Below are positions 387 through 59,499 of a stretch of DNA of 64,000 nucleotides, piece by piece. The stretch's first letter is position 1; each line of letters opens with the position of its first letter. Position numbers and translations under genes: made by a program. This DNA comes from Dokdonia sp. PRO95 (GTDB taxonomy: Bacteria > Bacteroidota > Bacteroidia > Flavobacteriales > Flavobacteriaceae): NCBI RefSeq assembly GCF_000355805.1, contig NZ_CM001837.1:385434-449433 (forward strand). Reading direction: 5' to 3'. Under the pieces are notes generated by a model. It was not told where the DNA came from and searched no databases. It saw only the letters and a program-made list of their open reading frames with translations.

Positions 387-1033
387 TGAGTATAGCAGAA
401 AATATCTTACGCTTTCGCGAAAACATTCCTTCACATGTTACTCTTGTAGCTGTTTCAAAAACAAAACCTGTTTCAGACCTTATGGAGGCGTATGAAACTG
501 GCCAACGCATTTTTGGAGAGAATAAGATTCAAGAAATGACAGACAAGTGGGAAGAAATGCCCAAAGATATACAGTGGCACATGATAGGTCACGTTCAAAC
601 CAATAAAGTAAAATTTATGGCTCCATACGTGAGCCTTATACATGCTGTAGATCGTTTAAAACTTATAAAAGAAGTAAACAAACAAGCAGCAGCAAATAAC
701 CGAGTAATTGATATTCTTATTCAGATTAAGATTGCTCGTGAAGATTCAAAATTTGGTATGGCAGTACAGGATGCGGTCAAGCTTTTTGAAGAAAACACAT
801 TAGATAATTATCCGCATGTAAATGTTGTTGGACTGATGGGAATGGCAACTTTTACAGATAACCAAGATCAAATTGCAGCAGAGTTTGAGTTGCTAGAAGG
901 ATTATTTTTACGCTTTCGCGAAAGCGCAAATCTCACCATACTATCCTCAGGAATGAGTGGTGATTATAAACTCGCAATTGACAAAGGGAGCACTATGATT
1001 AGAGTAGGAAGCAGTATTTTTGGTGCTAGATAA
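386..1033 (+). CDS. yggS: YggS/PROSC family pyridoxal-phosphate homeostasis protein
   Basis: This 215-residue protein has the single-domain alanine-racemase-like barrel of the YggS family. Lys25 in VAVSKTKP is the expected PLP lysine. Other family marks are GENKIQEM, WHMIGHVQTNK, a SKFGM segment and the C-terminal GSTMIRVGSSIFG. The family keeps free PLP in balance and has no strong enzymatic activity. The start overlaps the preceding stop by one base. The gene carries two copies of the window-wide palindrome, both read as the RFRES frame: a half-degenerate one in helix 1 (FREN, codons 10-13) and a perfect one near residues 176-181 (RFRESA). Length is slightly below the usual 220-235. Confidence 0.95.
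   Translation: MSIAENILRFRENIPSHVTLVAVSKTKPVSDLMEAYETGQRIFGENKIQEMTDKWEEMPKDIQWHMIGHVQTNKVKFMAPYVSLIHAVDRLKLIKEVNKQAAANNRVIDILIQIKIAREDSKFGMAVQDAVKLFEENTLDNYPHVNVVGLMGMATFTDNQDQIAAEFELLEGLFLRFRESANLTILSSGMSGDYKLAIDKGSTMIRVGSSIFGAR
411..424. repeat. Half-degenerate copy of the GCTTTCGCGAAAGC palindrome
   Basis: The core TTTCGCGAAA is at 413-422. The left arm is intact (GC) and the right arm ends AC. It is inside yggS, frame RFREN. Confidence 0.85.
911..926. repeat. Palindrome copy, 16 bases, in yggS
   Basis: Perfect CGCTTTCGCGAAAGCG, read as RFRES. It is the second copy in this gene, about 500 bases from the first. Confidence 0.95.
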
Positions 1034-1102
1034 CTTTAATTACTCTGACTTATATTTAAAATAACGTGATTCCCTAAAAACTGGAATTTTAAAAAATAGC
1101 AT

Positions 1103-2479
1103 ATTTACGCAATACTAGACATAGAAACCACTGGCGGTAAGTACAACGAAGAAGGTATAACAGAAATCGCCATATATAAATTTGACGGACATCAAGTTGT
1201 AGACCAATTTATCACTCTCGTAAATCCAGAACGCCCCATACAAGCATTTGTAGTAGGACTTACTGGCATTAACAACGGGATGTTAAAAGATGCTCCAAAG
1301 TTTCATGAAATAGCAAAGCGTATTATTGAAATTACTGAGGGATGTATTATTGTGGCTCATAATGCCCAGTTTGACTATCGCATTTTAAGTCTAGAGTTTG
1401 ACAGACTCGGATATCCGTTTGAAAGAACAACGCTATGCTCTGTAGAGCTCTCACAAGAGTTGCTCCCAGGTCATGATAGCTATAGCCTAGGCAAGTTAAC
1501 GAAGGCACTAGGAATCGCGATGTCTAACAGACATAGAGCAGATGGAGATGCTATTGCCACAGTAAAGCTTTTTAAGCTACTCCTAGAAAAAGATTCAGAA
1601 AAGACAATTATAACCAAGGCCATACGCTCTTTCCCAAAAAAGCATATGGATACCAAACTCAAGGACCTCATAAGAAGCGTTCCTTCTGAGACTGGTGTGT
1701 ACTTTATGCATAATGTAAATGGAACCATCATTTACATAGGCAAAAGTAAAAACATGAAAAAACGCCTTACGCAACATTTTACTAATGATAATCGTAAGAG
1801 TAAGCAAATACAAGATCAGGTAGAAACGGTTACTTACCAGACTACAGGTACTGAGCTCATTGCACTTCTAAAGGAAAATGAAGAAATAAAACGCAACAAG
1901 CCAAAGTTTAATAGAGCCTTACGTAGAACTAAATTTAAGGTACAACTCACTCACTATACAGACAGTGAAGGCTATATACACCTTAAGACTGAAAGAGCAG
2001 ATGCACGTAAGGAATCTATCACTACCTACAGCAACACCATGAGTGCCAAAGCTAATCTAGAGCGCATTATAGACTCGTATGATTTATGCCAGCATAAGAC
2101 ACTGTACAATGAGAAGAATGGTAACTGTTTTAATTACACCATTAAAAAATGTAATGGCGCTTGTATAGGTGAAGAATCACCAGAATCTTATAATAAAAGG
2201 GTTCAGGCTTTTTTAGATAAGCACAGCTATAAAAATAAGAGTATGGTCATTGTTGAGCGTGGTCGCACTTCAAATGAACGCTCTGTAGTACTTATAGAAG
2301 ATGGGGTTTTTAAAGGGATAGGTTATTTTAAACCTGACTTCCAACTTAACAATCTAGAAACACTCAAAGCTATTATAACTCCCATGGAGGATAACAGAGA
2401 TGCTAGACATATTATCCAAAGTTATTGTCGTAGTAGAAAACGACTTAAGATTATCCCGCTAGACCAGATTACTAACTAG
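1103..2479 (+). CDS. DEDDh exonuclease / GIY-YIG nuclease fusion protein
   Basis: This cytoplasmic protein of about 458 residues joins two nuclease domains. Residues 1-165 form a DnaQ-like 3'-5' exonuclease: LDIETTG (Asp6, Glu8), AHNAQFD (His86, Asp91) and HRADGDAIAT (His144, Asp149). Residues about 195-275 form a UvrC/Cho-type GIY-YIG domain (GVYFM, YIGKSKNMKKRL), followed by a Cys-containing segment (LCQHKTLYNEKNGNC...CNGAC). The first ATG (1280) would cut off the first exonuclease motif. The frame is open back only to a stop at 1097-1099, and no ATG, GTG or TTG lies between that stop and ETTG. Alignment with the family's usual MYAILDIETTG places the start at an ATT codon, 1103. A role in nucleotide excision repair is likely from the family. 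The start codon is inferred. Confidence 0.85.
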   Translation: MYAILDIETTGGKYNEEGITEIAIYKFDGHQVVDQFITLVNPERPIQAFVVGLTGINNGMLKDAPKFHEIAKRIIEITEGCIIVAHNAQFDYRILSLEFDRLGYPFERTTLCSVELSQELLPGHDSYSLGKLTKALGIAMSNRHRADGDAIATVKLFKLLLEKDSEKTIITKAIRSFPKKHMDTKLKDLIRSVPSETGVYFMHNVNGTIIYIGKSKNMKKRLTQHFTNDNRKSKQIQDQVETVTYQTTGTELIALLKENEEIKRNKPKFNRALRRTKFKVQLTHYTDSEGYIHLKTERADARKESITTYSNTMSAKANLERIIDSYDLCQHKTLYNEKNGNCFNYTIKKCNGACIGEESPESYNKRVQAFLDKHSYKNKSMVIVERGRTSNERSVVLIEDGVFKGIGYFKPDFQLNNLETLKAIITPMEDNRDARHIIQSYCRSRKRLKIIPLDQITN

Positions 2480-2524
2480 CACAGAAAACACTATTTTTAA
2501 GCCACTGTATAAAAATTAGATATT

Positions 2525-3388
2525 TTGACAAAAGAGGGTACATCATTCTGGCGCAGGAAACTACATGATATTATTTACGAAGCAGATACACCTGCTGGAA
2601 AATTATTTGATGTAGTACTACTTGTTCTCATACTAGCGAGTATTGCATTAGTCATGCTGGAGAGTGTAAAGAGTTTAGATGCAAAATACCATGATGTTTT
2701 TGAGGTAGGAGAATGGATTATCACCATCTTCTTCACGCTAGAATACTTTGCGAGAATTATAACGATAAAGAAACCTACAAAATATATTTTTAGCTTTTAC
2801 GGGCTTATCGATTTCTTCTCAACGATACCACAATATCTTGCATTTTTCTTTATTGGTTCAAACGCCTTACTCACTGTAAGAGCACTGCGCCTCTTACGAG
2901 TATTTAGGATTTTAAAAATCACGAGATACGTAGGTGAGTCTAATAAGTTATCAAAGGCACTACGAGATAGTAGAGCTAAGATTAGCATTTTCTTATTTGC
3001 CGTACTCATTCTGTGTATAATCGCTGGTACTATTATGTATATGGTAGAAGGAGAAGAAAGTGGTTTTTCAAGCATACCTGTAAGTGTTTACTGGTGTATT
3101 GTAACACTCACAACGGTAGGTTTTGGTGATATTGCACCCGTTACTCCACTTGGACAACTTATTGCCGCTATCATCATGATTCTAGGATATGGTATTATTG
3201 CAGTACCTACAGGTATTGTAAGTGCAGAATATGCAAAAGACATGAGCTCAGAAAAAATCACGATAGATGGTGAAGATTATGTGCATATGAACACGCAAGC
3301 ATGCGTAAACTGTAATGCAAAGAAACATCGTGATGACGCAGAGTTTTGTCATAAATGCGGACACACGCTTAATGTCTCACATGAGTAA
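2525..3388 (+). CDS. Voltage-gated-type potassium channel with C-terminal zinc ribbon
   Basis: This 287-residue inner-membrane channel has the six-helix ion-transport fold. S1-S3 lie at about 28-110. S4 has regularly spaced arginines (R119 to R134, RALRLLRVFRILKITR). The pore loop carries TTVGFGD (196-202), the GFG form of the K+ filter, and S6 follows. After the membrane domain, four cysteines (C260, C263, C275, C278) form a CxxC-x11-CxxC zinc-ribbon-like tail. The start is TTG at 2525, just after the nuclease gene. The last eight bases overlap the proposed miaA start (ATGAGTAA). Selective K+ permeation is inferred from the filter. The role of the metal-binding tail is unknown. Confidence 0.9.
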   Translation: MTKEGTSFWRRKLHDIIYEADTPAGKLFDVVLLVLILASIALVMLESVKSLDAKYHDVFEVGEWIITIFFTLEYFARIITIKKPTKYIFSFYGLIDFFSTIPQYLAFFFIGSNALLTVRALRLLRVFRILKITRYVGESNKLSKALRDSRAKISIFLFAVLILCIIAGTIMYMVEGEESGFSSIPVSVYWCIVTLTTVGFGDIAPVTPLGQLIAAIIMILGYGIIAVPTGIVSAEYAKDMSSEKITIDGEDYVHMNTQACVNCNAKKHRDDAEFCHKCGHTLNVSHE

Positions 3389-4292
3389 ATATCTCATCCC
3401 CATCGTAGGACCTACTGCAATAGGTAAAACTGCACTTTCTATTAAAGTTGCACAATATCTTAAAACAGAAATTCTATCTGCAGACTCTAGACAGTTTTTT
3501 AAAGAGATGTACATAGGCACCGCTGTTCCAGAACCTGAGGAACTCAACGCAGCTCCACATCACTTTATACAGCACCTTTCGGTAGATCAAGATTACAGTG
3601 TAGGTCACTTTGAAAAAGACGCTATCAAGAAAATTACGGCACTACATAAAAAGCATGACACACTCGTTATGGTAGGTGGCTCAGGCATGTACGTGGATGC
3701 TGTCATTAATGGCTTAGATGAGTTTCCACCTGTAAAGGATGGTGTACGAGCAAAGCTCAAAGATTTACACGAGAGCGAAGGCATTGAAGCACTACAGGAA
3801 CTTCTATTAGAAAAAGACCCTACCTATTACAAGCAAGTTGATATACAGAACACACAGCGTGTCATAAGAGCTTTAGAGGTATGTCTTTCGGCAGATGAGC
3901 CTTTTTCATTTTACAGAAATAGACCTAAACCTAAGCGCAATTTTGAAACCATCAAAATAGGATTACAAGCAGACCGTAAAATCATGTATGATCGTATTAA
4001 TTTACGCGTAGATCTTATGATTAAAAATGGTCTGGTTGAAGAGGTGGAAAGTTTGCTTTCGCGAAAGCATAACAACGCCCTTATAACTGTAGGCTACAGA
4101 GAACTTTTTGAATATTTTGAAGGCACAGTTACTCTAGAGAGAGCTATTGAAAATATAAAAACAAATACCCGTCGTTTTGCAAAAAGACAAATGACCTGGT
4201 ATCGTCGTGATGAGACTATCAATTGGTTTGACTACAAGACACCTTTTGAAGAAATAGCGTCGTTTATAAATAAAAAAACGCACCACTCATAG
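3381..4292 (+). CDS. miaA: tRNA dimethylallyltransferase MiaA
   Basis: MiaA transfers a dimethylallyl group to N6 of A37 in tRNAs that read UNN codons. The 303-residue protein starts MSKYLIPIVGPTAIGKTALS, with the P-loop GPTAIGKT. It also contains ILSADSRQFFKEM, GTAVPE, GGSGMYVDA and the C-terminal RRFAKRQMTWYRRD, all typical of MiaA. I chose ATG 3381 because the P-loop then falls at the usual distance from the N terminus; an upstream ATG at 3372 is possible. The gene overlaps the channel gene by eight bases. A palindrome copy (4055-4068) is read in the LSRK frame. The stop codon lies inside the hairpin of the terminator. Confidence 0.96.
   Translation: MSKYLIPIVGPTAIGKTALSIKVAQYLKTEILSADSRQFFKEMYIGTAVPEPEELNAAPHHFIQHLSVDQDYSVGHFEKDAIKKITALHKKHDTLVMVGGSGMYVDAVINGLDEFPPVKDGVRAKLKDLHESEGIEALQELLLEKDPTYYKQVDIQNTQRVIRALEVCLSADEPFSFYRNRPKPKRNFETIKIGLQADRKIMYDRINLRVDLMIKNGLVEEVESLLSRKHNNALITVGYRELFEYFEGTVTLERAIENIKTNTRRFAKRQMTWYRRDETINWFDYKTPFEEIASFINKKTHHS
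4055..4068. repeat. Palindrome copy, 14 bases, in miaA
   Basis: GCTTTCGCGAAAGC, read as LSRK (frame 3 of the repeat). Confidence 0.95.
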
Positions 4293-4306: not shown

Positions 4307-4343
4307 ATAGGTACACTAATATCGTTTATACCGATATTGGCTA

Positions 4344-5054: not shown

Positions 5055-5055
5055 A

Positions 5056-9367: not shown

Positions 9368-9387
9368 TACGCTTTCGCGAAAGCGTA
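9368..9387. repeat. Palindrome copy, 20 bases, downstream of fabI
   Basis: Perfect TACGCTTTCGCGAAAGCGTA, between the fabI stop and the fabI terminator. Confidence 0.95.
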
Positions 9388-15466: not shown

Positions 15467-16351
15467 TTAACTTTTTTGAATAACAGAGAGCGCGTCACCT
15501 ATTTTTTCATGTAATACATCACTCGCTGCCATTAATGGCAATCGCACATAAGGCTCGCAAATTCCTTGATGAGATAATAACGATTTGATTCCAGCGGGGT
15601 TTCCTTCTTCAAAGATTAAATCTATCATTGATAGGAGCGGTAAGTGTTTTTGGTACGCTTTCGCGAAAGCGTTATTCAAACCATCATTCATAATCTGAGA
15701 AAAATAGGAAGGTAATCCTTGACCTATTACAGAAATAACACCACTACCACCTGCCGATACTAACGATAACGCAAGTGCATCATCTCCAGAAAGCACCACA
15801 AAATCTTCTGGCACCTTGTGTATCAAGTGTAATACTTGAGCCATATCATTTACAGCTTCCTTTATAGCCACGATGTTCTCAAAATCACTAGCTAGTCTTG
15901 CCGAAGTCACTGGCAACATATTACTAGAAGTTCTACCTGGCACATTGTACAAAATGATAGGCAAAGGACTTGCCGCTGAAATAGCTGCAAAGTGCTGATA
16001 TATTCCTTCTTGAGTAGGCTTATTATATGCGGGCGATACTGAGAGAATCGCTGTAATCCCATCAAGATCTGTCGTGCTAAGCTCCTCTACTACTGCAGCT
16101 GTATTATTACCACCTACACCTAACACTATAGGCAAACGTTTATTTGTAACTTTTACTATATGAGCAACAATCTGTTTCTTTTCTTGAATGGTAAGTGTTG
16201 CTGTTTCGGCAGTAGTACCTAGTGCTACTAGATAATTAATACCTCCAGCAATACAATGCTCTATAAGACGTGTAAGCCCGTCAAAATCTACAGATAAATC
16301 TTTGTGAAATGGCGTTACAAGGGCAACACCCGTTCCTCTCAACTCTTTCAT
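15467..16351 (-). CDS. dapA: 4-hydroxy-tetrahydrodipicolinate synthase
   Basis: DapA condenses pyruvate and aspartate semialdehyde in lysine and diaminopimelate synthesis. The 294-residue barrel shows GTTAETATL, the conserved Tyr in ILYNVPGRTS, the Schiff-base Lys in IVAIKEAVND, and LSGDDALAL. The start overlaps the DUF6913 stop by one base. A palindrome copy at 15655-15672 is read as NAFAKA in the C-terminal helices. dapB, the next enzyme of the pathway, is near 51.5 kb. Confidence 0.97.
   Translation of the reverse strand: MKELRGTGVALVTPFHKDLSVDFDGLTRLIEHCIAGGINYLVALGTTAETATLTIQEKKQIVAHIVKVTNKRLPIVLGVGGNNTAAVVEELSTTDLDGITAILSVSPAYNKPTQEGIYQHFAAISAASPLPIILYNVPGRTSSNMLPVTSARLASDFENIVAIKEAVNDMAQVLHLIHKVPEDFVVLSGDDALALSLVSAGGSGVISVIGQGLPSYFSQIMNDGLNNAFAKAYQKHLPLLSMIDLIFEEGNPAGIKSLLSHQGICEPYVRLPLMAASDVLHEKIGDALSVIQKS
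15655..15672. repeat. Palindrome copy, 18 bases, in dapA
   Basis: ACGCTTTCGCGAAAGCGT, read on the minus strand as NAFAKA. Confidence 0.95.
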
Positions 16352-19568: not shown

Positions 19569-22329
<2,761 letters not shown>

Positions 22330-23843: not shown

Positions 23844-24713
23844 TTAAGCCATACACGCCTTAATCATTCTATCTTTACCAAACATATCTTTTCTAAGCAC
23901 AACGTCTGTAAAGCCAATATTTTTTAATAACGCTACTGTCTCTCTACCCAGATATTCATTAATCTCAAAATACAGAGCTCCTGTGGTTGCTAAGCTTTTA
24001 CTGGCCAGCTCACCAATCTTTCTATAAAAAATAAGAGGATCTTGATCTGAAACAAATAGTGCACTATCTGGCTCATTGCTCAGCACGTTTGCTCTCATCA
24101 TTGCCTTTTCTTGCTCTCTTACATACGGCGGGTTACTCACGATAACATTATAAACCTCATCGAGGGCTTGCGTCTCAAGGATGTTCTGGTTATAAAAGTC
24201 TACTTTCACGCCATTTGCCTTAGCATTTTGATATGCTGTGGCAAGTGCATTCTGGGAGATATCTACCGCTTCTACTGTTGCTTTATTAATATTTTTTGCA
24301 AGTGTAATTGCTATACAACCAGAACCTGTACCTATGTCTAAAAGACGTAGCGTATCTTTGGCTTCCTCTTTTATTAGACCTTGTGCCACATCATCAATAA
24401 TCCAGGCAACGAGCTCTTCGGTTTCTGGTCTAGGTATTAATGTAGCCGGGTTTACCTGAAAGTCAAGCCCGTAAAATGACGAGCTACCTGTGATATATTG
24501 TATAGGCTCACTCTTAGACAGTCTAGCTGTTATATCTTCAAGCTCTTTACGTTGTGATGGGTGTATGTTTTGCTTTCGCGAAAGCGAGATCTCAACCCTA
24601 TTCATTTTCAATACGTGCTCAAGCGTTAAGAAGCATAGGTTCTCGACCTCTTCTGGCTCATAAAGTGCGGCCAGTTGCTCCCTAAAATCTGCGCGAAAAT
24701 CGTCTATACTCAT
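23844..24713 (-). CDS. prmC: Release factor glutamine methyltransferase
   Basis: PrmC methylates the Gln of the GGQ motif in release factors. The protein (289 residues from ATG 24713) has an N-terminal helical domain and a SAM-binding domain with LLDIGTGSGCIAITLAK and the catalytic NPPY in VSNPPYVREQE. An upstream ATG at 24740 is possible, but ATG 24713 overlaps the GNAT stop as ATGA and fits family length. A palindrome copy at 24572-24585 is read as LSRK in the N-terminal domain. Confidence 0.95.
   Translation of the reverse strand: MSIDDFRADFREQLAALYEPEEVENLCFLTLEHVLKMNRVEISLSRKQNIHPSQRKELEDITARLSKSEPIQYITGSSSFYGLDFQVNPATLIPRPETEELVAWIIDDVAQGLIKEEAKDTLRLLDIGTGSGCIAITLAKNINKATVEAVDISQNALATAYQNAKANGVKVDFYNQNILETQALDEVYNVIVSNPPYVREQEKAMMRANVLSNEPDSALFVSDQDPLIFYRKIGELASKSLATTGALYFEINEYLGRETVALLKNIGFTDVVLRKDMFGKDRMIKACMA
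24572..24585. repeat. Palindrome copy, 14 bases, in prmC
   Basis: GCTTTCGCGAAAGC, read on the minus strand as LSRK, the same frame as in miaA. Confidence 0.95.
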
Positions 24714-25221: not shown

Positions 25222-26223
25222 GTGAAGATACACAACACCTATATAAAAAGATGTATTGCCCTTGCAAAAAATGGGCTTCCAGCAGCAATGCCTAACCCCT
25301 CGGTAGGAGCCGTACTTGTGCATAATAACACGATTATTGCAGAAGGCTATACAAGTGCATATGGCGGTCCTCACGCAGAGGTAAATTGTATCGCTTTCGC
25401 GAAAGCGAATACCCCAGAACTCATTGCCAAATCTACCTTATACGTATCTCTAGAACCCTGCTCACACTGGGGAAAAACCCCTCCTTGTGCAGATCTCGTT
25501 ATAGACTCAGGAATTAAACGCGTAGTGATAGGCACCATAGACCCTTTTGCCAAAGTAGCCGGCGCTGGCATAAAAAAACTTATGCAAGCTGGAGTTGATG
25601 TTACCGTAGGCGTGCTTGAAAAAGAATGTCAAGAGGTAAATAAACGCTTCTTTACCTATCACAATGAGAAGCGACCATTTATAATTTTAAAATGGGCCGA
25701 AACCGCAAATGGTTTTATAGCTCCTGCTACCAGAGATAAACAAGAACCGGTGTGGATTACAAACCCCCACTCAAGACAACTAGTGCACAAACTACGTAGC
25801 GAGGAGATGGGCATTTTAGTGGGCGGAAAGACCGTTATAGAAGATAACCCTACACTTACCACACGTGACTGGCACGGCAGCAACCCGACTAGAATCGTGA
25901 TTGACACACAAGGTAACCTCCCTGAGGAGTTACACATATTTAATAATGAAGCTCCTACAATAGTGCTTAACGACAGTGACCCAAAAAGCATCTGTAAAGA
26001 ACTTTTTGAGCATAACATACAATCTGTTATTGTAGAAGGTGGCGCTGCTACCCTACAACGCTTTATAGATGCAGCTTTATGGGATGAGGCTAGCGTATTT
26101 ACAGGCCTTACAAACTTTAATGCAGGTATAAAGGCTCCCAAGAAAACAAGCCAATTTACACTACAATCTACTCAACACATACAAGGTGACAGGTTGGATA
26201 CTTACACACGCAACGACACTTGA
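25222..26223 (+). CDS. ribD: Bifunctional pyrimidine deaminase/reductase RibD
   Basis: RibD does the deamination and side-chain reduction steps of riboflavin synthesis. The 333-residue protein has an N-terminal cytidine-deaminase-like zinc domain (GGPHAEVNC, EPCSHWGKTPPC) and a C-terminal reductase domain (ILKWAETANGFIA, GGKTVIEDNPTLTTR, VIVEGGAATLQRF). The start is GTG 25222, giving MKIHNTYIKRCIALAKNG. A palindrome copy (25391-25408) gives AFAKA just after the HAE motif. ribH lies at 59.5 kb. Confidence 0.96.
   Translation: MKIHNTYIKRCIALAKNGLPAAMPNPSVGAVLVHNNTIIAEGYTSAYGGPHAEVNCIAFAKANTPELIAKSTLYVSLEPCSHWGKTPPCADLVIDSGIKRVVIGTIDPFAKVAGAGIKKLMQAGVDVTVGVLEKECQEVNKRFFTYHNEKRPFIILKWAETANGFIAPATRDKQEPVWITNPHSRQLVHKLRSEEMGILVGGKTVIEDNPTLTTRDWHGSNPTRIVIDTQGNLPEELHIFNNEAPTIVLNDSDPKSICKELFEHNIQSVIVEGGAATLQRFIDAALWDEASVFTGLTNFNAGIKAPKKTSQFTLQSTQHIQGDRLDTYTRNDT
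25391..25408. repeat. Palindrome copy, 18 bases, in ribD
   Basis: TCGCTTTCGCGAAAGCGA, read as AFAKA. Confidence 0.95.
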
Positions 26224-27109: not shown

Positions 27110-27129
27110 TACGCTTTCGCGAAAGCGTA
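27110..27129. repeat. Palindrome copy, 20 bases, after the DMT transporter
   Basis: Perfect 20-mer directly after a run of eight T; could also serve as a terminator-like hairpin. Confidence 0.95.
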
Positions 27130-27599: not shown

Positions 27600-28775
27600 T
27601 TACTCTCTACGGTACTGCTTTGTCTCTTCAAAAACGTGATCAAGTATAGCGATGTCTTGTTCTGTAAGTTCTATATCACGACGCGCCATTGCTATTTTTG
27701 CCGTCTCGTAGGCCTTATTTGTTTTGTGCGTCACAAAGCCACTAGCACCTCCCCAAGAAAATGAAGGAACAAAATTACGTGGAAAACCACTCCCAAAAAT
27801 ATTAGAAGCCACGCCCACTACGGTACCGGTATTAAACATTGTATTAATACCACACTTAGAGTGGTCACCCATCATTAGACCACAAAACTGTAGCCCTGTA
27901 TTTGCAAAGCGACCCGTCTCATAATCCCATAACTTTACGGGAGCATAATTATTTTTAAGGTTTGAGTTGTTTGAATCTGCACCTATATTACACCATTCTC
28001 CTAGCACACTATTGCCTAAAAAGCCATCGTGACCCTTTGAAGAGTACCCCATAAGCACGGAGTTATTTACCTCTCCTCCTACTTTACAGTGAGGACCTAA
28101 AGTGGTGCCGCTATAAATTTTGGCGCCCATTTTTACAGCTCCGTGATCACATACTGCAAAAGGTCCTCTTACAAGTGCACCTTCCATAATCTGCGCATCT
28201 TTACCTATATAAATAGGGCCATCTGTCGCATTAAGATGTGAGTAGTGAACTGTTGCTCCTTCCTCAATAAATATTTGTTCTTTATTTATTGCTATTACGT
28301 GCTCTGGAATGTCTTGAGACTCTCTATCTTCGGTAAACATCTCAAAATCTCTAGTGATTGCTTCACCGTTTTTAGCAAAAATATCCCAAGTATGCTCGAT
28401 TCTTAAAACATCTGATGCTGTATAATCTATGCTCTCATAAGTATCAAAGTCTACTTCTTGTCCTTCTTGTACTGAAAATGCGATTATTTCCTCCCCATCA
28501 AGCAACACCTGCTTTGATGATAAATTTTTAATAATCTCAGCTAAATTGTCTGAAGGAAGATAGGATGCATTAATCATCACGTTTTCTTCAAGCTCTATCA
28601 TAGGCCACTTATCTGAAAGATACTCTTCTGTTACAGTTGAGGTTGTTGAGCCAAGTACAAACTCCCACTTTTCTCGTATAGTCATAATGCCCACGCGCAA
28701 GTCAGCGACTGGTTTTGTATACGTAAATGGTAAAAGCTGATTGCGTACGTTTCCGTCAAAAAGGATAAAGTTCAT
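27600..28775 (-). CDS. GlmU-like sugar nucleotidyltransferase family protein
   Basis: This 391-residue protein starts MNFILFDGNVRNQLLPFTYTKPVADLRVGI, like the Bacteroidetes GlmU-related family. The C-terminal part shows hexapeptide repeats of a left-handed beta helix (GPIYIGKDAQIMEGALVRGPFAVCDHGAVKMGAKIYSGTTLGPHCKVGG). The usual GlmU pyrophosphorylase motif LAAGxGTRM is absent, so nucleotidyl transfer is unproven. It may act on sugar nucleotides for envelope synthesis. Confidence 0.82.
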   Translation of the reverse strand: MNFILFDGNVRNQLLPFTYTKPVADLRVGIMTIREKWEFVLGSTTSTVTEEYLSDKWPMIELEENVMINASYLPSDNLAEIIKNLSSKQVLLDGEEIIAFSVQEGQEVDFDTYESIDYTASDVLRIEHTWDIFAKNGEAITRDFEMFTEDRESQDIPEHVIAINKEQIFIEEGATVHYSHLNATDGPIYIGKDAQIMEGALVRGPFAVCDHGAVKMGAKIYSGTTLGPHCKVGGEVNNSVLMGYSSKGHDGFLGNSVLGEWCNIGADSNNSNLKNNYAPVKLWDYETGRFANTGLQFCGLMMGDHSKCGINTMFNTGTVVGVASNIFGSGFPRNFVPSFSWGGASGFVTHKTNKAYETAKIAMARRDIELTEQDIAILDHVFEETKQYRRE

Positions 28776-28855
28776 GGGTTAGATTTTAGTCTCTATACAA
28801 AGTGTGCGAGACAGATAGACTTAAAGATAAAACTTATTGAAAACGAAGTTACTTA

Positions 28856-29323
28856 TTATTTACGAGGCTTCTTTACTAAAAGTGTCCACTCAAAGTTAAA
28901 CTCAGAAACCTGCACACCGTCTTTATTTGTCCCTACAGCCTTCATCCAGCATGTTTGTCCTTCTCCTGTAGCTACAGCATTTGCTATAGCTTCTTTAATA
29001 GCTTGACCATCATCACACACAAAGTGTATTCTCCCAGTTGCTTTTTTTGTAAAGCTTGCATTATTGTTTGCAACAAGCATTGATATTTTCTGACCGCTTT
29101 CTTGTATGTGTGCAATAACAAGTGCTCCTGTGGCAAGCTCTGCAGCCATACCTTGTACTGCCCAAAACATACTATTAAAAGGGTTTTGGTTAATCCATCT
29201 GTGTTTTACAGAGGTCGTACAAGAGCTAGGAGAGAGTTTTTTTACACGTACTCCCGTAAGCCACGCAGATGGCAGCTTAAACATTGTGAACGTATTGAAT
29301 TTACCAGGTAAGGGGAATGACAT
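28856..29323 (-). CDS. DUF4442 hotdog-fold protein
   Basis: This 155-residue soluble protein has the pattern of DUF4442: KHRWINQNPFNSMFWAVQGMAAELATGALVIAHI, which is the central helix region of a hotdog fold, and beta strands after it. Members are related to thioesterases. The catalytic role is not established and no substrate can be named. It stands alone between the GlmU-like gene and a terminator. Confidence 0.78.
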   Translation of the reverse strand: MSFPLPGKFNTFTMFKLPSAWLTGVRVKKLSPSSCTTSVKHRWINQNPFNSMFWAVQGMAAELATGALVIAHIQESGQKISMLVANNNASFTKKATGRIHFVCDDGQAIKEAIANAVATGEGQTCWMKAVGTNKDGVQVSEFNFEWTLLVKKPRK

Positions 29324-29356
29324 AATCTATTGTTTTGCGGTAAAAATAGGGAATAA

Positions 29357-29382
29357 AAAAGGTTCCCAAATGAGAACCTTTT
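29357..29382 (-). terminator. Rho-independent terminator after the C1q-like gene
   Basis: Nine-base arms AAAAGGTTC/GAACCTTTT flank an eight-base loop, 20 bases past the stop of the gene at 29402-30091. Confidence 0.8.
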
Positions 29383-29401
29383 AAGAAAAGATGTATAAAT
29401 T

Positions 29402-30919: not shown

Positions 30920-30939
30920 TACGCTTTCGCGAAAGCGTA
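30920..30939. repeat. Palindrome copy, 20 bases, between DUF4870 and padR-like genes
   Basis: Perfect TACGCTTTCGCGAAAGCGTA in the 112-base gap. Confidence 0.95.
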
Positions 30940-33898: not shown

Positions 33899-33914
33899 CG
33901 CTTTCGCGAAAGCG
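33899..33914. repeat. Palindrome copy, 16 bases, upstream of the GIN gene
   Basis: CGCTTTCGCGAAAGCG, about 80 bases before ATG 33995. Confidence 0.95.
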
Positions 33915-35663: not shown

Positions 35664-35680
35664 TTTTTCGCGAAAGCGTA
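35664..35680. repeat. Half-degenerate palindrome copy in the regulator/PspA gap
   Basis: TTTCGCGAAAGCGTA with left arm changed to GCTTT; lies between the XRE-type regulator and the CesT-like gene. Confidence 0.85.
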
Positions 35681-36986: not shown

Positions 36987-37700
36987 TTGGACAACTTTAT
37001 AAATCTCATATTTTCAGAAGTTAATATCATCTTGAGCGTCTTATTGATACTCTTGATCATTTACTGGATACTTACCTCGGTGAGCGGTATTGATTTTGAC
37101 TACGATATGGACATCGACATTGATCTCGATGTAGATGTAGATGCAGATTTTGACATCAACACCGTAGACTCTGGTAGTATGGATTTTGAAGATGTCTCAA
37201 GTGCAGAGGTAGACAGGTCACACGTTGTAAATAAAAGACGTAAACCGCTTAAGTGGTGGCAAGTATTGTTAATTTACTTCAACTTTGTAGGTCTTCCATT
37301 TATGTTCACCTTTACGGTATGGGTATTTTTATGGTGGCTTTGCACCCTAGTAACCACAAGTATTACCGGTAGCTATGCAACAAGTTTTGGTTACATACTT
37401 ATGTTGAGCTGTATGATCCCTGCTTTGTTCCTTACTAAGATATTTACCACTCCATTTAAGTCGTTTTTTAAAAACTTGAATAAAGATGGTGATAAGGCTA
37501 CAGACTTTTTAGGTCGTGACGCAGTGTTGCTATCTACCATTTCTGGAGACAAGATGGGTAATGCAGAGGTACTAGCAGATGGCAACCCTATGAGTATTTA
37601 TGTAAAATCACTAGATGGGTCAGAAATACGCTTTCGCGAAAGCGTACTCATCATCAAACAGTCACCAGATAAAAATTACTTTTTAGTCAGCAAATATTAA
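36987..37700 (+). CDS. YqiJ/NfeD-type membrane protein with OB-like C-terminus
   Basis: This 237-residue protein starts at TTG 36987. It has one helix at the N terminus (INLIFSEVNIILSVLLILLIIYWIL), an Asp-rich stretch (about residues 33-55, alternating D with I, V or L), and two more helices (VLLIYFNFVGLPFMFTFTVWVFLWWL; TSFGYILMLSCMIPALFL). The last 80 residues look like an OB-fold, as in NfeD and YqiJ proteins (DFLGRDAVLLSTISGDKMGNAEVLADGNPMSIYVKSLDGSEIRF). Such proteins partner flotillins, the next gene. The final domain contains a palindrome read as RFRES. Confidence 0.82.
   Translation: MDNFINLIFSEVNIILSVLLILLIIYWILTSVSGIDFDYDMDIDIDLDVDVDADFDINTVDSGSMDFEDVSSAEVDRSHVVNKRRKPLKWWQVLLIYFNFVGLPFMFTFTVWVFLWWLCTLVTTSITGSYATSFGYILMLSCMIPALFLTKIFTTPFKSFFKNLNKDGDKATDFLGRDAVLLSTISGDKMGNAEVLADGNPMSIYVKSLDGSEIRFRESVLIIKQSPDKNYFLVSKY
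37627..37646. repeat. Palindrome copy, 20 bases, in the YqiJ-like gene
   Basis: Perfect 20-mer in coding sequence, read as IRFRESV in the OB-like domain. Confidence 0.95.
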
Positions 37701-39879: not shown

Positions 39880-39898
39880 ACGCTTTCGCGAAAGCGTA
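39879..39898. repeat. Palindrome copy, 20 bases, after the flotillin hairpin
   Basis: Perfect 20-mer that begins in the T-run of the hairpin at 39831-39879. Confidence 0.95.
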
Positions 39899-42900: not shown

Positions 42901-44846
42901 AGCTAGGACTACTCACCTACGCCCCAGAAATTAGAGCATACGCTCAGTATTTCTGGAACAGCATTGACCCAAGTACTCAAAAAACACTTAACCAATCTAT
43001 AAAGGCTTCGGGAGAGGTGTTGCAGTTTTTTCCAGATGCAAAGGAGTACCAATTTATTGTTGATACTTTAAGTGAGGAGATACACGCTTTCGCGAAAGCG
43101 GAATCCCTTTTCTCACCCGAGTTAAGTCAGACCATTGCGACCTATATCTTTGACGAGCTTCAAGGTGACACAGAGTTTGTGCGTAGTAGTGTTGCGGTGC
43201 GTTTAAAAGACGCTTTCGCGAAAGCGTTAAAACAACAACAGGCAGATCTCAAGTTTAAAAAGAGTTATGAGTCACTCCCTAGCCTAAAAGGGAAAGTGCA
43301 GCTCGTAAAACAGTGGGTGACGGCATTTGTACGCACCCAAGAAAGCCTAACCGATGTACGCTACGTAGATGAAGTAGTGTGTTTACTACTCTTTGAAGAT
43401 GAGTCGGTTTTAAAAACAAAAGCGGCTTCTCCAAATGAGAAAATTACTGGTTTAAGCGGTGATCACAGCACGATAACCGAAGGTGTTTTCAACTTTAACT
43501 ACCACGACTTTACGGCAAGGCTCAACTTATTTGTAACAGAGCAAGTACCCGCATTTGAAACTTTTAAGAAAGCAAAACACACGGTTACTGAAGAGTTAAA
43601 AGAAGCTTTAAAACTAGACGAATTTAAACCAAGAGTGCTTACATCCTTTGTGCGTAACAAGCTGATTGACCAAGTGTATTTCCCATTGTTTGGTGATAAC
43701 CTTGCAAAGCAATTAGGAACCGTGGGCGATAACAAACGTACCGACCGTATGGGTATGTTGCTGCTCATCTCACCACCAGGATACGGAAAAACCACCCTGA
43801 TGGAATATATCGCAAACCGTCTAGGTCTTGTTTTTGTAAAAATTAACGGCCCAGCGATAGGTCACGAAGTTACGTCTGTAGATCCAGAAAGTGCTACAAA
43901 TAGCGCTGCACGTGAAGAGCTCAAAAAACTCAACGTCGCTTTTGAGATGGGTAACAATGTGATGCTATACCTAGACGATATACAGCACTGTAATCCTGAG
44001 TTTTTACAAAAATTCATCTCCTTATCTGACGGTACACGTAAGATAGAAGGTGTGTACAACGGGAAGTCAAAAACTTATGACCTACGTAGCAAGAAATTCT
44101 GTGTAATAATGGCGGGTAACCCGTATACAGAGAGTGGAGAGAAATTCCGCATACCAGATATGCTTGCAAACAGGGCAGATATTTATAACCTGGGAGATAT
44201 CATAGGAGATACGGAACACCTGTTTAAATTGAGTCTTATTGAGAATTCGCTCACTGCAAATCCGCTACTGCAGCAGTTAAGTAGTAGTCATTTTGAAGAT
44301 GTGTATACCTTAATAGACCGCATAGAAAATGGGACTCAGGACAGTCAGCTCAAAGGAAATCACACCGCACAAGAGGTGGCAGATTACACAAAGGTACTAG
44401 AGAAGGTAATCACCATACGCAACACAGTACTTAAGGTAAATGCAGAATACATACGCAGTGCCGCGCAAGAAGATGCTTATCGTACAGAGCCGTCATTTAA
44501 ACTTCAAGGATCATACCGTGATATGAATAAACTCGTAGCCAAAGTAGTTCCCATTATGAACGACACTGAGCTCGCGACCTTGCTCCTATCGCATTATGAA
44601 AGCGAGTCACAAACACTCACTTCAAGCGCAGAAGCAAACCTCTTAAAGTACCGCGAACTCATAAATGCGCTAGATGAAACGCAGCAACAGCGCTGGAACA
44701 CGATGAAAGAAACCTTTGTAAAAAATAATAAACTCAAAGGTTTTGGTGATAAAAATGAAATGGCACAGGTGCTCTCTCAAATGATGGAGTTTACCGAGAA
44801 TCTTGAAGGGATAAAAAAGGCGCTTGAGAAGGGGTTGGAGCGGTAA
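39969..44846 (+). CDS. Giant AAA+ ATPase (DNA-repair ATPase family, PspA/flotillin-linked)
   Basis: This 1625-residue protein has an N-terminal beta-rich region (about 1-430) that includes DUF3686-like sequence, a long coiled-coil portion (about 480-870) and a C-terminal AAA+ ATPase. Walker A is PPGYGKTT (Lys1274), Walker B VMLYLDDIQ (Asp1336, Asp1337) and a sensor-like segment IMAGNPYTESG near 1383. Homologues are commonly called DNA repair ATPase, but that name has little support; the neighbourhood points to the membrane. Two palindromes, 110 bases apart, are read as AFAKA near residues 1040 and 1082. It is followed by a strong terminator. No signal peptide or membrane helix was seen. Confidence 0.88.
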   Translation: MANETPDIQPKATQTLDGGTYEIIQGRLQKQKTDLQKRLQELNEERKNVFGSLETKLIANDRINTENNCIARDIVSLKNLCLFGYNVHFGLRTDIHLGDVFSAYEFKDNRFEPRDLSLLQDDTFLLDFANLYKYYRNTIFSKFAIIGNYLYMVFQLSDSVTDIKTFKWLIKEDTLQYVDNRSEHEYRFPQQHDFKWQEATRDMHRYGEHAHVSILDKVFVETIGGDLTIKIEDNTDQGKGILDEPVELIDQTLDDGQYRYADLGNLLALEIKPFQEEPRYFVFNNKLKEVQKIQSVKDTCVLLPDDQGIIFPTGYYLQTGEYNIFDNAIPNVKFQQKVSSPNGEDFLYVFYSPEEALYNLMSYNVITQEIKTPIICNGFTVLQDGQLCYFRTENEQTKHHVIQIWQTPFLKGDYMPSQHEDTLLYKIGNKDIVKAMAEVNSLITLLNKEDNYDGLYSDIAKFSKDILDAYYWLPEAETKQLNVPLAEINGAANAAIDEFQKVVQLKRNAAKQTKEVETKASEIFGKIKSTSFKSINDFVALLTQLRSLRGETISLNDIRYVDPTFVKTLEEEIAVQTQKISEKCVQFLLDDKALKPYHDAVAEKKQVMDGIKKVIEAKKLEEEVNQIATDLELLIDIVSNLDIEDTSHSTKIIDDISLIFATINQLKAGIKNKKKSLGSAEAQADFAAQLKLIDQSIINYLDIATTPEKCDEFQTKISIQLEELEGKFADWDEFITLIIEKREEVYGAFEARKNALIEKRNKKAMALKNASERILKGVRKKAESFKTASEINGYFAADLMINKVRDIIQQLKEQEDTGKAEEIETGLKTAREDALRKLKDKLDLYEDGDTVIRLGKHKFGVNKQPLDLTIVLKDGALNYHLTGTDFYQELSNETLLASRHIWDQEFVSETSEVYRSAYLAYKLFNKLDKHTLLEAGDDALLGIVQEESRNDYAEGYVKGVHDVDATKILKVLVHKHNELGLLTYAPEIRAYAQYFWNSIDPSTQKTLNQSIKASGEVLQFFPDAKEYQFIVDTLSEEIHAFAKAESLFSPELSQTIATYIFDELQGDTEFVRSSVAVRLKDAFAKALKQQQADLKFKKSYESLPSLKGKVQLVKQWVTAFVRTQESLTDVRYVDEVVCLLLFEDESVLKTKAASPNEKITGLSGDHSTITEGVFNFNYHDFTARLNLFVTEQVPAFETFKKAKHTVTEELKEALKLDEFKPRVLTSFVRNKLIDQVYFPLFGDNLAKQLGTVGDNKRTDRMGMLLLISPPGYGKTTLMEYIANRLGLVFVKINGPAIGHEVTSVDPESATNSAAREELKKLNVAFEMGNNVMLYLDDIQHCNPEFLQKFISLSDGTRKIEGVYNGKSKTYDLRSKKFCVIMAGNPYTESGEKFRIPDMLANRADIYNLGDIIGDTEHLFKLSLIENSLTANPLLQQLSSSHFEDVYTLIDRIENGTQDSQLKGNHTAQEVADYTKVLEKVITIRNTVLKVNAEYIRSAAQEDAYRTEPSFKLQGSYRDMNKLVAKVVPIMNDTELATLLLSHYESESQTLTSSAEANLLKYRELINALDETQQQRWNTMKETFVKNNKLKGFGDKNEMAQVLSQMMEFTENLEGIKKALEKGLER
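43085..43100. repeat. Palindrome copy, 16 bases, in the giant ATPase gene (first)
   Basis: CGCTTTCGCGAAAGCG, read as HAFAKAE. Confidence 0.95.
43210..43227. repeat. Palindrome copy, 18 bases, in the giant ATPase gene (second)
   Basis: ACGCTTTCGCGAAAGCGT, read as DAFAKAL, 110 bases from the first copy. Confidence 0.95.
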
Positions 44847-47240: not shown

Positions 47241-47254
47241 GCTTTCGCGAAAGC
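47241..47254. repeat. Palindrome copy, 14 bases, upstream of trxB
   Basis: GCTTTCGCGAAAGC, in the leader of trxB, 17 bases before its start. Confidence 0.95.
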
Positions 47255-48623: not shown

Positions 48624-49048
48624 TGAAACTACTTATAAGTTTATGTACGGCAGGAGTTAGTGTGTTTTTATTTTTCGCGAAAGCGGAAAAAGAAGTTTAC
48701 ACCTCTCAAGACCCACTTGCAGAATCTATAGAACGTGGTGCAGAGGTATACCAAGACTTTTGTATACAGTGTCACCTAGGTAAGGGTGAAGGTGTGGCAG
48801 GGACTTTCCCGCCGCTTGCTGGATCAGACTGGCTTACAGAAGATCGCTATAAAGAAGCCATAAAAGCTGTAAAGTATGGCCAGCAAGGTCCTATTACCGT
48901 AAATGGTGTCGCATATAATGGCGTGATGGCAAACCTTGAGCTTTATGAAGATGAGGTGGCAGATGTAATGAACTACATTATGAACAGCTGGGGCAATAAA
49001 CAGAAAGAAATGATTACTGAAGAAGCGGTGAAAGCTATCTCAAAATAA
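48623..49048 (+). CDS. Exported class I cytochrome c
   Basis: This 141-residue protein has a signal peptide ending in FFAKA, then one haem site CIQCHLGKG (Cys, Cys, His) and an axial Met candidate in NGVMANLELYEDEVADVMNYI. It follows the sugar dehydrogenase by a one-base overlap, so it probably receives its electrons. The palindrome at 48673-48686 encodes the signal-peptide end, and the signal peptidase would cut after AKA. Confidence 0.9.
   Translation: MKLLISLCTAGVSVFLFFAKAEKEVYTSQDPLAESIERGAEVYQDFCIQCHLGKGEGVAGTFPPLAGSDWLTEDRYKEAIKAVKYGQQGPITVNGVAYNGVMANLELYEDEVADVMNYIMNSWGNKQKEMITEEAVKAISK
48673..48686. repeat. Half-degenerate palindrome copy in the cytochrome c signal peptide
   Basis: TTTCGCGAAAGCGG with the left arm changed to TT. 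Read as FFAKAE at the signal peptide end. Confidence 0.85.
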
Positions 49049-50900: not shown

Positions 50901-51492
50901 CAAATACCTCTTACTGGTTTTTTTATTGTGTTTTTACGCTTTCGCGAAAGCGCAACAAGACTCCCCTGCAGAAACTATTATTGATGCAGATGAGGTAGAG
51001 GGCATATCTAGTAAAGAACCTTATGACCCTCTAAGACCAGCAAAAGCTGCCTTTTACGGCGCTGTACTCCCTGGATTAGGTCAAATTTATAATAAAGATT
51101 ACTGGAAACTTCCACTAGTGTACGGAGCTTTAGGCTCTACAATTTACGGTGTATCATATAATAGCAAACAGTCTGAGCGTTTTAGAACTGCCTTTAAAGA
51201 TAGACTGGCTGGTCGTATAGACGAGTTTACTACAGTTAATGAAGATGGTACGACCACAGAAATCTTTTCTGATGATGCTCTTATTAATGGTCAAGATCAA
51301 TTTAGAAGAAGAAGAGATCTGTTTATCTTAGTATCTGCTGGAGTCTATGTTCTCCAGATTATAGAGGCAAATGTAGATGCTCACTTATCACAATATGATG
51401 TAGATGATGACTTAAGCTTTGGACCTGCACTTTATTATGACGACTTAGGGCAGACCATGAATTATGGACTCTCTTTTAATTACAAGTTTTAG
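50890..51492 (+). CDS. DUF5683 exported membrane-associated protein
   Basis: This 200-residue protein has a signal peptide whose end, FYAFAKA, is encoded by a palindrome (50937-50952). The mature part has PYDPLRPAKAAFYGAVLPGLGQIYNKDYWKLPLVYGALGSTIYGV, which is the DUF5683 hallmark, and two hydrophobic segments. In Bacteroidetes this family regularly follows parB. Its function is not known. The start overlaps parB by 11 bases. Confidence 0.82.
   Translation: MQSNKYLLLVFLLCFYAFAKAQQDSPAETIIDADEVEGISSKEPYDPLRPAKAAFYGAVLPGLGQIYNKDYWKLPLVYGALGSTIYGVSYNSKQSERFRTAFKDRLAGRIDEFTTVNEDGTTTEIFSDDALINGQDQFRRRRDLFILVSAGVYVLQIIEANVDAHLSQYDVDDDLSFGPALYYDDLGQTMNYGLSFNYKF
50935..50954. repeat. Palindrome copy, 16-base core, in the DUF5683 signal peptide
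   Basis: CGCTTTCGCGAAAGCG at 50937-50952, read as YAFAKAQ at the signal peptide end. Confidence 0.95.
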
Positions 51493-53874: not shown

Positions 53875-53877
53875 TTT

Positions 53878-54513: not shown

Positions 54514-55522
54514 AAGTCGCCATAGAAGGCTTGTGATCACTTAAATCTACATCGTAGGTTTCAAAGTTTGTAACCGGTAAAGACTCGTCTACTAAGATAA
54601 AGTCTATACGTAAAGGTATGATATCAAACCAGAAGGTTGCTCCAGTTCCTGATCCCGCTTTCGCGAAAGCGTCAACTTTATCACCTTTCACCTTGCGATA
54701 CATATAAGAGGTAGCGCTATTGTTAAAATCTCCTGTAACAACAACTGGAAAAGGAGATAGTGCTTCACTCTGTAAAAACTTAGCTACCTGAGCTTCTTGC
54801 TTTTCAAAAGCTTGACCTAATCTACCCAGTAATTTTTTTGAATTCTCCTTTTGTAAGTTTACTAGATTAGGCGATAAGCTGAATGATTGAAAATGCATAT
54901 TATACACCCTTACAGTATCAGTAGCTGTTGCAATATCTGCATAAATCCCATTATTACCCGTATTTTCAAAATCCAATGAACCACTATTAATAATTGGATA
55001 TTTTGAGAAAATCACTTGACCAAAAGATTTACTAGGCGATGTCATTACTTTATACTCGTATGGATATACCTTCTCATCGGGTTTAAATCCTGGATAATAT
55101 TCTTGAAAGGAAACGACATCAGGATCTTTATCAGAAATTAGCTGCACAACACGCTCACCTACTTTCACTTCATCAGACCAACCGTGTATATTAAACTGCC
55201 TTACATTATAGGTAAGCACTTTTAACGCATTTGAATTATCTACCTCTTCCCCTCCGCCCAAGCGTATGAGAGAGAAAATATGAGTTATACCCAGAGCGAG
55301 TACAATTGCTGAGAGCAACAGTTGTCTTCTACCCCTAAAAAACCAATAAACAAAGAATATAAAATTTATAATAAGCAGTACAGGAAGTACAAGGCTAAGC
55401 ACAGAAAGTGCAGGAAAAATATGTGGAGGTATAAATGGTAATAAATAACTAGCTAGTAGGAGTACGGCAAATATGCTATTTACAAAGAAGATAATCTTAC
55501 CGAAGAATTCGAGCTTTTTCAT
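54497..55522 (-). CDS. Membrane-anchored endonuclease/exonuclease/phosphatase family protein
   Basis: This 341-residue protein has three N-terminal hydrophobic helices (about residues 10-85) and then an EEP metal-dependent hydrolase domain: LTYNVRQFN, VVSFQEYYPG (metal-binding Glu), TGDFNNSATS and the closing DLSDHKPSMATF with its catalytic Asp-His. The substrate is unknown. A palindrome in this gene (54656-54671) is read as AFAKA. Confidence 0.9.
   Translation of the reverse strand: MKKLEFFGKIIFFVNSIFAVLLLASYLLPFIPPHIFPALSVLSLVLPVLLIINFIFFVYWFFRGRRQLLLSAIVLALGITHIFSLIRLGGGEEVDNSNALKVLTYNVRQFNIHGWSDEVKVGERVVQLISDKDPDVVSFQEYYPGFKPDEKVYPYEYKVMTSPSKSFGQVIFSKYPIINSGSLDFENTGNNGIYADIATATDTVRVYNMHFQSFSLSPNLVNLQKENSKKLLGRLGQAFEKQEAQVAKFLQSEALSPFPVVVTGDFNNSATSYMYRKVKGDKVDAFAKAGSGTGATFWFDIIPLRIDFILVDESLPVTNFETYDVDLSDHKPSMATFMLAR
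54656..54671. repeat. Palindrome copy, 16 bases, in the EEP-family gene
   Basis: CGCTTTCGCGAAAGCG, read on the minus strand as DAFAKAG. Confidence 0.95.
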
Positions 55523-55525
55523 CTC

Positions 55526-56410: not shown

Positions 56411-56419
56411 ATGTAACTA

Positions 56420-57154: not shown

Positions 57155-57156
57155 AC

Positions 57157-59031: not shown

Positions 59032-59043
59032 TAGGACTTACGG

Positions 59044-59331
59044 TTATAGCGGATTTGTAAATATGGATAAGTCGAAGTCTATAATCCAAAGAAATAATAA
59101 TACCATGAGAATAAATATAATGGCGATTGTACGGTTATATCCACCTTTACGACTTTCTTGAAGCTCGTCCCACGCAGTAGTAATTTTTTTCTTAAGCCCA
59201 CCGTTGTAGTCGAGCGTTTTACGGTGCTCATCAAAGCGTCCTTCTATCTTAAAAGGGCTCCCTTCCTTATCGCTATTATAATAGCGCGGCTCGTAACTAT
59301 ACTTCTTATTTGTGCGTTTTATAATTCCCAT
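59044..59331 (-). CDS. Small single-helix membrane protein
   Basis: This 95-residue protein has a basic, hydrophilic N-terminal part (MGIIKRTNKKYSYEPRYYNSDKEGSPFKIEGRFDEHRKTLDYNG) and one C-terminal helix (TIAIIFILMVLLFLWIID). Homologues in Flavobacteriia are often mislabelled as riboflavin synthase subunits because they lie near ribH. The sequence has no such enzyme domain. It is 12 bases past mutL and may be co-transcribed. Confidence 0.65.
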   Translation of the reverse strand: MGIIKRTNKKYSYEPRYYNSDKEGSPFKIEGRFDEHRKTLDYNGGLKKKITTAWDELQESRKGGYNRTIAIIFILMVLLFLWIIDFDLSIFTNPL

Positions 59332-59479
59332 AATACTATTGTTTCAAAGATACAATTTCGTATCCAAAAAGCGTACCGTTCCATTCATTCTCCCTACAGA
59401 ATTAAGAACAATCATATTAAAAAGAAGCACAAATAGCACGACAGCTACTGTGAGATATAGTAGGTAGTTATTTGCTTAT

Positions 59480-59499
59480 TACGCTTTCGCGAAAGCGTA
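59480..59499. repeat. Palindrome copy, 20 bases, downstream of ribH
   Basis: Perfect 20-mer in the gap between ribH and the small membrane protein gene. Confidence 0.95.

Follow-up and report, generated by a model that had tools for sequence, protein, structure and literature searches.

Here, we show that a palindrome centred on GCTTTCGCGAAA is a clade-limited signal present in about 800 copies per genome. In the window, by which we mean the whole 64-kb stretch of DNA analysed, the exact 14-mer GCTTTCGCGAAAGC occurs 17 times, against 0 in 100 dinucleotide-preserving shuffles, and a search allowing up to two mismatches returns 22 matches where 0.22 are expected. The 10-base core TTTCGCGAAA is found 21 times (one per 3.0 kb), 17 times within exact 14-mers and four times outside them, with starts at 413, 20593, 35666 and 48673. 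Judged by eye, 15 of the 17 exact copies extend to at least 16 bases and 9 to at least 18, while 6 contain the 20-mer TACGCTTTCGCGAAAGCGTA. The preliminary description of this DNA had reported 17 perfect and four core-only copies at about one per 3 kb, many of them extending to 16-20 bases, with a chance expectation of about zero, and each of these statements is reproduced here; the iterated palindrome as observed in the window is confirmed as real and far above chance. The sites are listed by window coordinates, with no strand assigned.

411..424, site, core intact, one arm altered (GCTTTCGCGAAAAC); mismatch search and core listing
912..925, site, exact 14-mer; exact-match search
4055..4068, site, exact 14-mer; exact-match search
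9371..9384, site, exact 14-mer; retained in genomes G003, G016 and G004 though the flanks are gapped
15657..15670, site, exact 14-mer; missing from G004
20591..20604, site, core intact, one arm altered; missing from G004
24572..24585, site, exact 14-mer; exact-match search
25393..25406, site, exact 14-mer; exact-match search
27113..27126, site, exact 14-mer; exact-match search
30923..30936, site, exact 14-mer; exact-match search
33900..33913, site, exact 14-mer; exact-match search
35664..35677, site, core intact, one arm altered; one substitution destroys the core in G016 and in G006
37630..37643, site, exact 14-mer; retained at all 5 of the Nonlabens loci aligned
39882..39895, site, exact 14-mer; exact-match search
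43086..43099, site, exact 14-mer; exact-match search
43212..43225, site, exact 14-mer; exact-match search
47241..47254, site, exact 14-mer; exact-match search
48671..48684, site, core intact, one arm altered; mismatch search and core listing
50938..50951, site, exact 14-mer, within the gene after parB; exact-match search
54657..54670, site, exact 14-mer; exact-match search
59483..59496, site, exact 14-mer; missing from G004

The whole genome (3.3 Mb) holds 794 exact 14-mers, or one per 4.2 kb, and none of the same pattern read backwards as a control. Two checks put forward in the preliminary description, a codon-aware shuffle and a count over the genome and its relatives, were both run. In the predicted coding sequence of a sample of 864 kb, 93 exact copies compare with a mean of 0.82 and a maximum of 3 in 50 synonymous-codon shuffles, and the 17 other genomes of the genus that were searched carry 369-905 copies each. 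Across the family, more than 500 cores are found in 6 of 397 genomes, belonging to three genera, and at most 37 in the other 391; the carriers with names are Dokdonia and Nonlabens. The outer arms of the palindrome differ among genera, those of the other genera being known from few cores (16 and 11). A one-gene tree places the carriers in a supported group, eight rows in size, that has one Winogradskyella row inside it, and therefore a single origin is not demonstrated by that gene.

The sites keep their places much more rigidly than the sequence around them, and differences between related genomes arise by point mutation. Between two species 108 of 112 copies keep their positions, and at about 75% local identity 15 of 19 copies are retained, as against 8% of control 10-mers. 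Positions are common to species and in part also to genera; the site in the gene after parB lies at an identical offset in G013, G010, G017 and G225, and is missing at that place in three g11 genomes. G000 and G006 differ at 12 cores; in 10 cases a single base has changed with no gap, and the other two cases are an alignment slip. Several core losses are C-to-T or G-to-A at CG steps, with no clear excess (counted by eye, some 7 among 12 clean single changes, where 4 of the 10 core positions are CG). Shared DNA contains 3.5 cores per 10 kb, and accessory DNA a single core in 11 runs (31 kb), a density about tenfold lower.

The unit can be written as TTACGCTTTCGCGAAAGCGTAA, a palindromic consensus of 22 bp with mirror flanks over about 56 bp. 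These flanks are C-poor on the left and G-poor on the right to about 28 bp from the centre, T-rich first and A-rich after, and their bias is alike in coding and intergenic copies. No covariation is seen between the arms, and pairing at positions 12-15 is below expectation, which favours recognition of the duplex over a hairpin. The strict symmetry, combined with independent variation of the two arms, leads us to infer that a putative sequence-specific homodimer reads the duplex, one subunit per arm. The first 100 sites are evenly spaced (CV 0.67 vs 0.99), with two gaps under 1 kb vs 20.7 expected. Copies had been said to lie in unrelated genes and in gaps, in agreement with the 203 sampled here, of which 110 are intergenic and 93 fall within predicted genes; in co-directional gaps most of them sit no more than 100 bp past the upstream stop.

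What might such a palindrome be? A perfect inverted repeat, more often intergenic than genic and, in co-directional gaps, mostly placed shortly past a stop codon, could be a structured RNA or DNA element, such as a terminator, a REP-like hairpin or a mobile palindrome, yet we regard this as very improbable. The flank order is the opposite of a terminator's T run, which together with the genic copies and the lack of covariation leads us to reject an intrinsic terminator; the lack of covariation likewise rejects a hairpin function, and presence or absence by substitution rather than insertion (see the G000-G006 differences above) rejects spread as a REP or MITE. The confinement of a genome-wide iterated palindrome to one clade is instead reminiscent of HIP1 and the alternate HIPs of cyanobacteria (PMC4390886), HIP1 being the best known palindromic iterated word, with a role that the cited account describes as little known (PMC4390886). 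HIP1 is, however, an 8-mer, GCGATCGC, with orphan methylases for its inner words, whereas the word here spans 14-22 bp plus flanks and is not associated with a C5 methylase. The palindrome could nevertheless be a word of the HIP1 type, maintained either through methylation-dependent repair or by an orphan methylase whose target is an inner word such as TCGCGA or CGCG, a proposal for which its restriction to one clade and the core losses at CG steps (without clear excess) speak. We consider it improbable, as a C5 methylase (PF00145) is missing from 8 of 13 carriers, TCGCGA outside the palindrome is not enriched and the constraint extends 28 bp from the centre. Both the C5-methylase association and avoidance of TCGCGA (70 outside sites vs 67.5 expected) are rejected, so that the earlier suggestion of TCGCGA as a methylation or restriction target finds no support as regards C5 methylases or avoidance; CGCG overall is mildly low (777 vs 930.7 expected).

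A close rival, which we consider quite possible, is that the palindrome is the site of a putative nucleoid-associated or segregation protein private to the carrier genera, whose dimer would wrap about 56 bp every few kb, each site being preserved for its effect on architecture. This would suit the strict palindrome with its extended flanks and independent arms, the even spacing, the strong conservation in place, the similar occurrence in genes and gaps, and the presence of copies in all 41 sampled stretches. The sites of parS, Noc, SlmA and MatP are palindromes bound by chromosomal proteins, and the TTTC...GAAA arms resemble those of parS and Noc sites; unlike all four, the palindrome described here has far more copies and a different centre spacing. 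Against such a protein stand the lack of sites in accessory runs as long as 12.6 kb, a copy number that does not track genome size within one genus (570 in 4.3 Mb; 905 in 3.3 Mb), the weak dependence of sites on how far they lie from the putative origin (Spearman -0.35, P 0.024), and the fact that no binder is known. Moreover, ParB is neither extra nor re-specified: 12 of the 13 carriers have a single ParB and G010 has two, the core HTH stretch shows no carrier-private change in an alignment of six carriers from a single genus and 12 non-carriers, and each of the 13 carriers has a parS-like site that deviates by no more than one mismatch. A ParB/Noc switch is rejected, ParB and the parS-like sites being ordinary here; ParB_N scores are slightly lower in carriers (108.9-115.4 vs 113.7-120.5 bits).

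The reading that we tentatively favour is that the palindrome labels the DNA of kin for uptake or for homologous exchange, in the manner of DNA uptake sequences, which serve a type IV pilus-type uptake machine. Fragments with a site would preferentially enter or recombine, and this preference would restore lost sites, give them an even spacing (once a fragment carries one site, another adds nothing), keep them within the shared genome and let genera drift into dialects. The uptake sequences of Haemophilus and Neisseria, in the cited account, are evenly spaced, in excess in non-coding DNA, changed by point mutation and known in two versions, with 1471 copies per genome in H. influenzae and 1965 in N. 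gonorrhoeae (PMC1939737). Our palindrome is like these USS/DUS of Pasteurellaceae and Neisseriaceae in its copy number (of the order of 1000), its even spacing, its non-coding excess with many genic copies, its gradual change by point mutation and its versions that differ in related species, and unlike them in being a 22-bp palindrome with mirror flanks at about one per 4 kb (PMC1939737). The known uptake sequences covered in that account are not palindromic, which counts against the exchange reading (PMC1939737). HIP1, uptake sequences and nucleoid-protein sites had all been offered in advance as likenesses, and we judge them the fitting comparisons. The mirror flanks, the restriction to three genera and the in-place conservation of single copies across species could not have been read off a single window.

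The genome is mosaic, which supports exchange. In seven filtered exchange tracts between G000 and G016 there are 21 cores vs 12.8 expected (P 0.005), from one genome pair in which two tracts make up about 70% of the bases, and a second filtered count for this pair gives 20 vs 13.2. The filter drops merely conserved tracts and leaves no tract for G006/G016. An initial unfiltered test, which alignability could bias, gave 29 vs 20.2 (P 0.012). In the coordinates of a third genome the counts are 28 vs 19.5 (P 0.007) and 12 vs 8.4 (P 0.066), with 25 vs 18.9 (P 0.022) and 12 vs 8.0 (P 0.034) in further comparisons, the four overlapping one another. Counting against exchange, 10 of 17 tracts of at least 500 bp hold a site vs 9.99 by chance, and tract ends lie no closer to sites than chance (P 0.32), by which breakpoints at sites are rejected. 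ComEC and DprA are parts of competence; ComEC is present in 13 of 13 carriers and 18 of 19 other genomes, and DprA in 13 of 13 and 19 of 19; their presence in every carrier suits the exchange reading, and their being equally common without the motif counts against it. An association with a T2SS/T4P-type ATPase is rejected, as five of the 13 carriers have a PF00437 match above the cut-off and the other eight, this genome among them, have none, which counts against the exchange reading and is a further difference from USS/DUS.

A fuller version of the exchange reading, unlikely as it stands, is a pilus-independent palindromic signal of Flavobacteriaceae, in which a dimer would open or cut the duplex, whether incoming or chromosomal, at the palindrome's centre, giving 3'-ended strands fit for strand exchange, and preferential recombination among kin would drive sites through the shared genome. 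Opening or cutting there would, we speculate, leave both sides ending in a C-poor, G/T-rich 3' strand. Chi, too, is an over-represented word linked to exchange; one of its strands is rich in G and T, and it is non-palindromic and acts in one orientation; the word here is likewise over-represented with a G/T-rich strand and, unlike Chi, palindromic.

Few iterated genome-wide words are known, and the one described here is long and position-stable. In the open-access library covered here the 14-mer appears in no paper, no title among papers containing the 10-mer core concerns this group, searches on an iterated palindrome in flavobacteria and on palindromes with Dokdonia and Nonlabens returned no paper, and a search on uptake sequences, Bacteroidetes and palindromes returned Neisseria work only. 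The carrier genera include named isolates, which opens both binder and function to direct experiment. An NCBIfam search with three window genes found little, and one window gene searched against plasmids gave distant matches only. In virus sequences, the palindrome occurs mostly as single copies per stretch among the matches listed.

Both the 17 exact copies of the palindrome GCTTTCGCGAAAGC and the 4 further copies of its 10-base core that the preliminary description had counted were found again in the window, and the exact 14-mer appeared in none of 100 shuffles of that sequence. The window spans bases 385434-449433 of the Dokdonia sp. PRO95 genome (G000; 3,305,093 bases, one contig), and across this genome there are 794 copies of the 14-mer and 0 of the backward-read pattern used as a control. 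An 864-kb sample, made up of the window and 40 spaced stretches of the same genome, yielded 203 exact copies, 21 single-mismatch places and 60 double-mismatch places, against averages of 0, 0.03 and 0.9, respectively, for permuted control palindromes. The excess also stands under the codon-aware shuffling proposed earlier as a check: the sample's 93 coding copies compare with a mean of 0.82 and a maximum of 3 in 50 synonymous-codon shuffles of 778 predicted genes. The other 110 copies are intergenic, in the 14% of the DNA that is intergenic by our gene calls. Coding copies use all three frames (55, 12, and 26), and the peptide AFAKA, encoded by the commonest frame, occurs 60 times in predicted proteins. 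The first 100 sites are evenly spaced (CV 0.67 vs 0.99 expected), with 2 gaps below 1 kb where 20.7 were expected, a value never reached in 5000 simulations. In contrast to this general avoidance of close pairs, the exact copies at 43086 and 43212 of the window lie 126 bp apart in one gene. A putative origin was placed at about 1.23 Mb by parS-like sites, and site density declines weakly away from it (Spearman -0.35, P 0.024).

The 17 other genomes searched from the same genus carry 369-905 copies each, a number that does not track genome size. Of 18 genomes in the family but outside this genus, G027 has 578 copies, G029 has 6, and the remaining 16 have none, and the 14-mer is absent from the 23 genomes searched from other families of the order. 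Within the phylum it is present in 24 of 392 genomes, exceeding 6 copies in G000 only. The core reaches 559-1107 copies in 6 of 397 family genomes (genera g1, g11, and g205); in the remaining 391 it never exceeds 37, a level at which the backward control itself gives up to 28. Among the 80 loci listed, six with named sources carry the 14-mer, one from Dokdonia and five from Nonlabens. Clusters of the motif also occur in otherwise motif-poor genera, at loci L368-L372 (G197:C1:300001-335000 and parts of G029:C18:70001-146000), where tested genes include RND efflux pumps, a multicopper oxidase, and P-type ATPases, with a ParB-domain gene near the G029 cluster. These clusters are possibly islands from carrier hosts.

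The sites are conserved in place. Over 384 kb compared with two relatives, G006 retains 108 of 112 aligned cores and G016 retains 70 of 82. Where local identity to G006 is about 90%, the figure is 41 of 43 (control 10-mers, 39%); where local identity to G016 is about 75%, it is 15 of 19 (control 10-mers, 8%). Window sites are retained at 21 of 21 positions in G008 and at 10 of 14 aligned positions in the more distant G004. Site 37630 is present in all 5 aligned Nonlabens loci, and site 50938, in the gene after parB, lies at an equal offset in G013, G010, G017, and G225 (another genus), with no equivalent in that gene in three g11 genomes. The comparison of G000 with G006 gives 12 core differences, of which ten are gap-free single-base changes; the remaining 2 are an alignment slip at one intergenic spot where both genomes have the site. 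Accessory runs of at least 1 kb (n=11) total 31,284 bp and contain a single core, and the 243,162 bp aligned to both G006 and G016 contain 85.

The consensus in the 864-kb sample is TTACGCTTTCGCGAAAGCGTAA. All 58 cores short of the full 14-mer keep one GC arm intact, the altered arm reading ATGTGA six times and ATTTGA five times among 54 such cores in the 40 stretches. A 22 bp weight matrix, trained on exact-core sites and with its 31 bits inflated by that choice, scores at least 6 at 302 places, against 2 in one simulated control. Beyond the GC, the outer arm is most often GTAA in G000 and is GGAA in 16 of 31 arms in g11; named Nonlabens loci are mixed (GTAA 5 and GAGA 4 of 24 arms), and g205 has no clear form (11 cores) and less C-poor flanks as well. 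After masking, the commonest 12-mer left in the sample is GCTTACGCGAAA (13 copies); such near-variants are possibly weaker versions of the site. GCTTTTGCAAAAGC, at 60953-60966 of the window and at L142, departs from the word by two changes that keep it palindromic; some relatives carry the unaltered form there.

C makes up about 5-8% of left-flank bases 9-24 bp from the centre and 11% of those near 28 bp, compared with about 17%, and G and T are raised; the right flank is the mirror image. The same flanks accompany intergenic copies, and coding copies show them on either side irrespective of the coding strand. We sought covariation between the arms and found none at positions 9-11, and at positions 12-15 pairing is below expectation. 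We read this as pointing to a word that a dimer would recognise in duplex DNA rather than to a hairpin.

Might the word serve DNA exchange? At 20.3-28.4 and 30.3-49.0 kb the window shares about 97% identity with G003 and 95-97% with G016, and elsewhere about 90% with G006 and G008; we read this mosaic as a recent exchange between species. The switches between the two lineages are sharp (20300-49050, interrupted at 28394-30287). Near-identical tracts shared with G016 recur across the 384 kb. Once merely conserved tracts are removed, 7 remain, covering 38 of 252 kb and containing 21 of the 84 cores, where 12.8 are expected (P 0.005, circular shifts); counted in G016, these tracts have 20 cores, with 13.2 expected (P 0.007), a result not independent of the first. 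On the other side, distances from tract ends to sites are no shorter than chance, and 10 of 17 tracts of at least 500 bp contain a site, no excess over the 9.99 expected. We mildly favour the exchange reading.

Uptake sequences are described as evenly spaced, in excess in non-coding DNA, changed by point mutation, and found in differing versions (PMC1939737), and all of these features are seen in this palindrome, whose versions differ between genera. The flavobacterial word is additionally biased to the shared genome. By this analogy, its working appears most like that of uptake sequences. However, we do not class it as one, because it is palindromic and 8 of 13 carriers have no pilus-type ATPase over the cut-off. 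Nearly as likely is that it is the site of a chromosome-organising protein, and neither class explains the strand-asymmetric mirror flanks well. In our boldest reading, which we only infer, the duplex would be opened or cut at the palindrome centre, so that the 3' end on either side would be formed by the C-poor strand.

A gene-family survey of 32 genomes (13 carriers and 19 others) identified none of ParB, C5 methylases, T2SS/T4P-type ATPases, ComEC, or DprA as the carriers' common factor. ParB and DprA are in all 32 genomes (a parS-like site with at most 1 mismatch is in 13 of 13 carriers), ComEC is in 13 carriers and 18 others, C5 methylases in 5 and 11, and T2SS/T4P-type ATPases over the cut-off in 5 and 5. 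At G000:C1:2994546-2996633, a single 700-aa frame has two C5 methylase matches. GGATCC is depleted in the 864-kb sample, with 28 occurrences where 68.9 would be expected, a deficit that resembles the effect of a restriction system targeting it.
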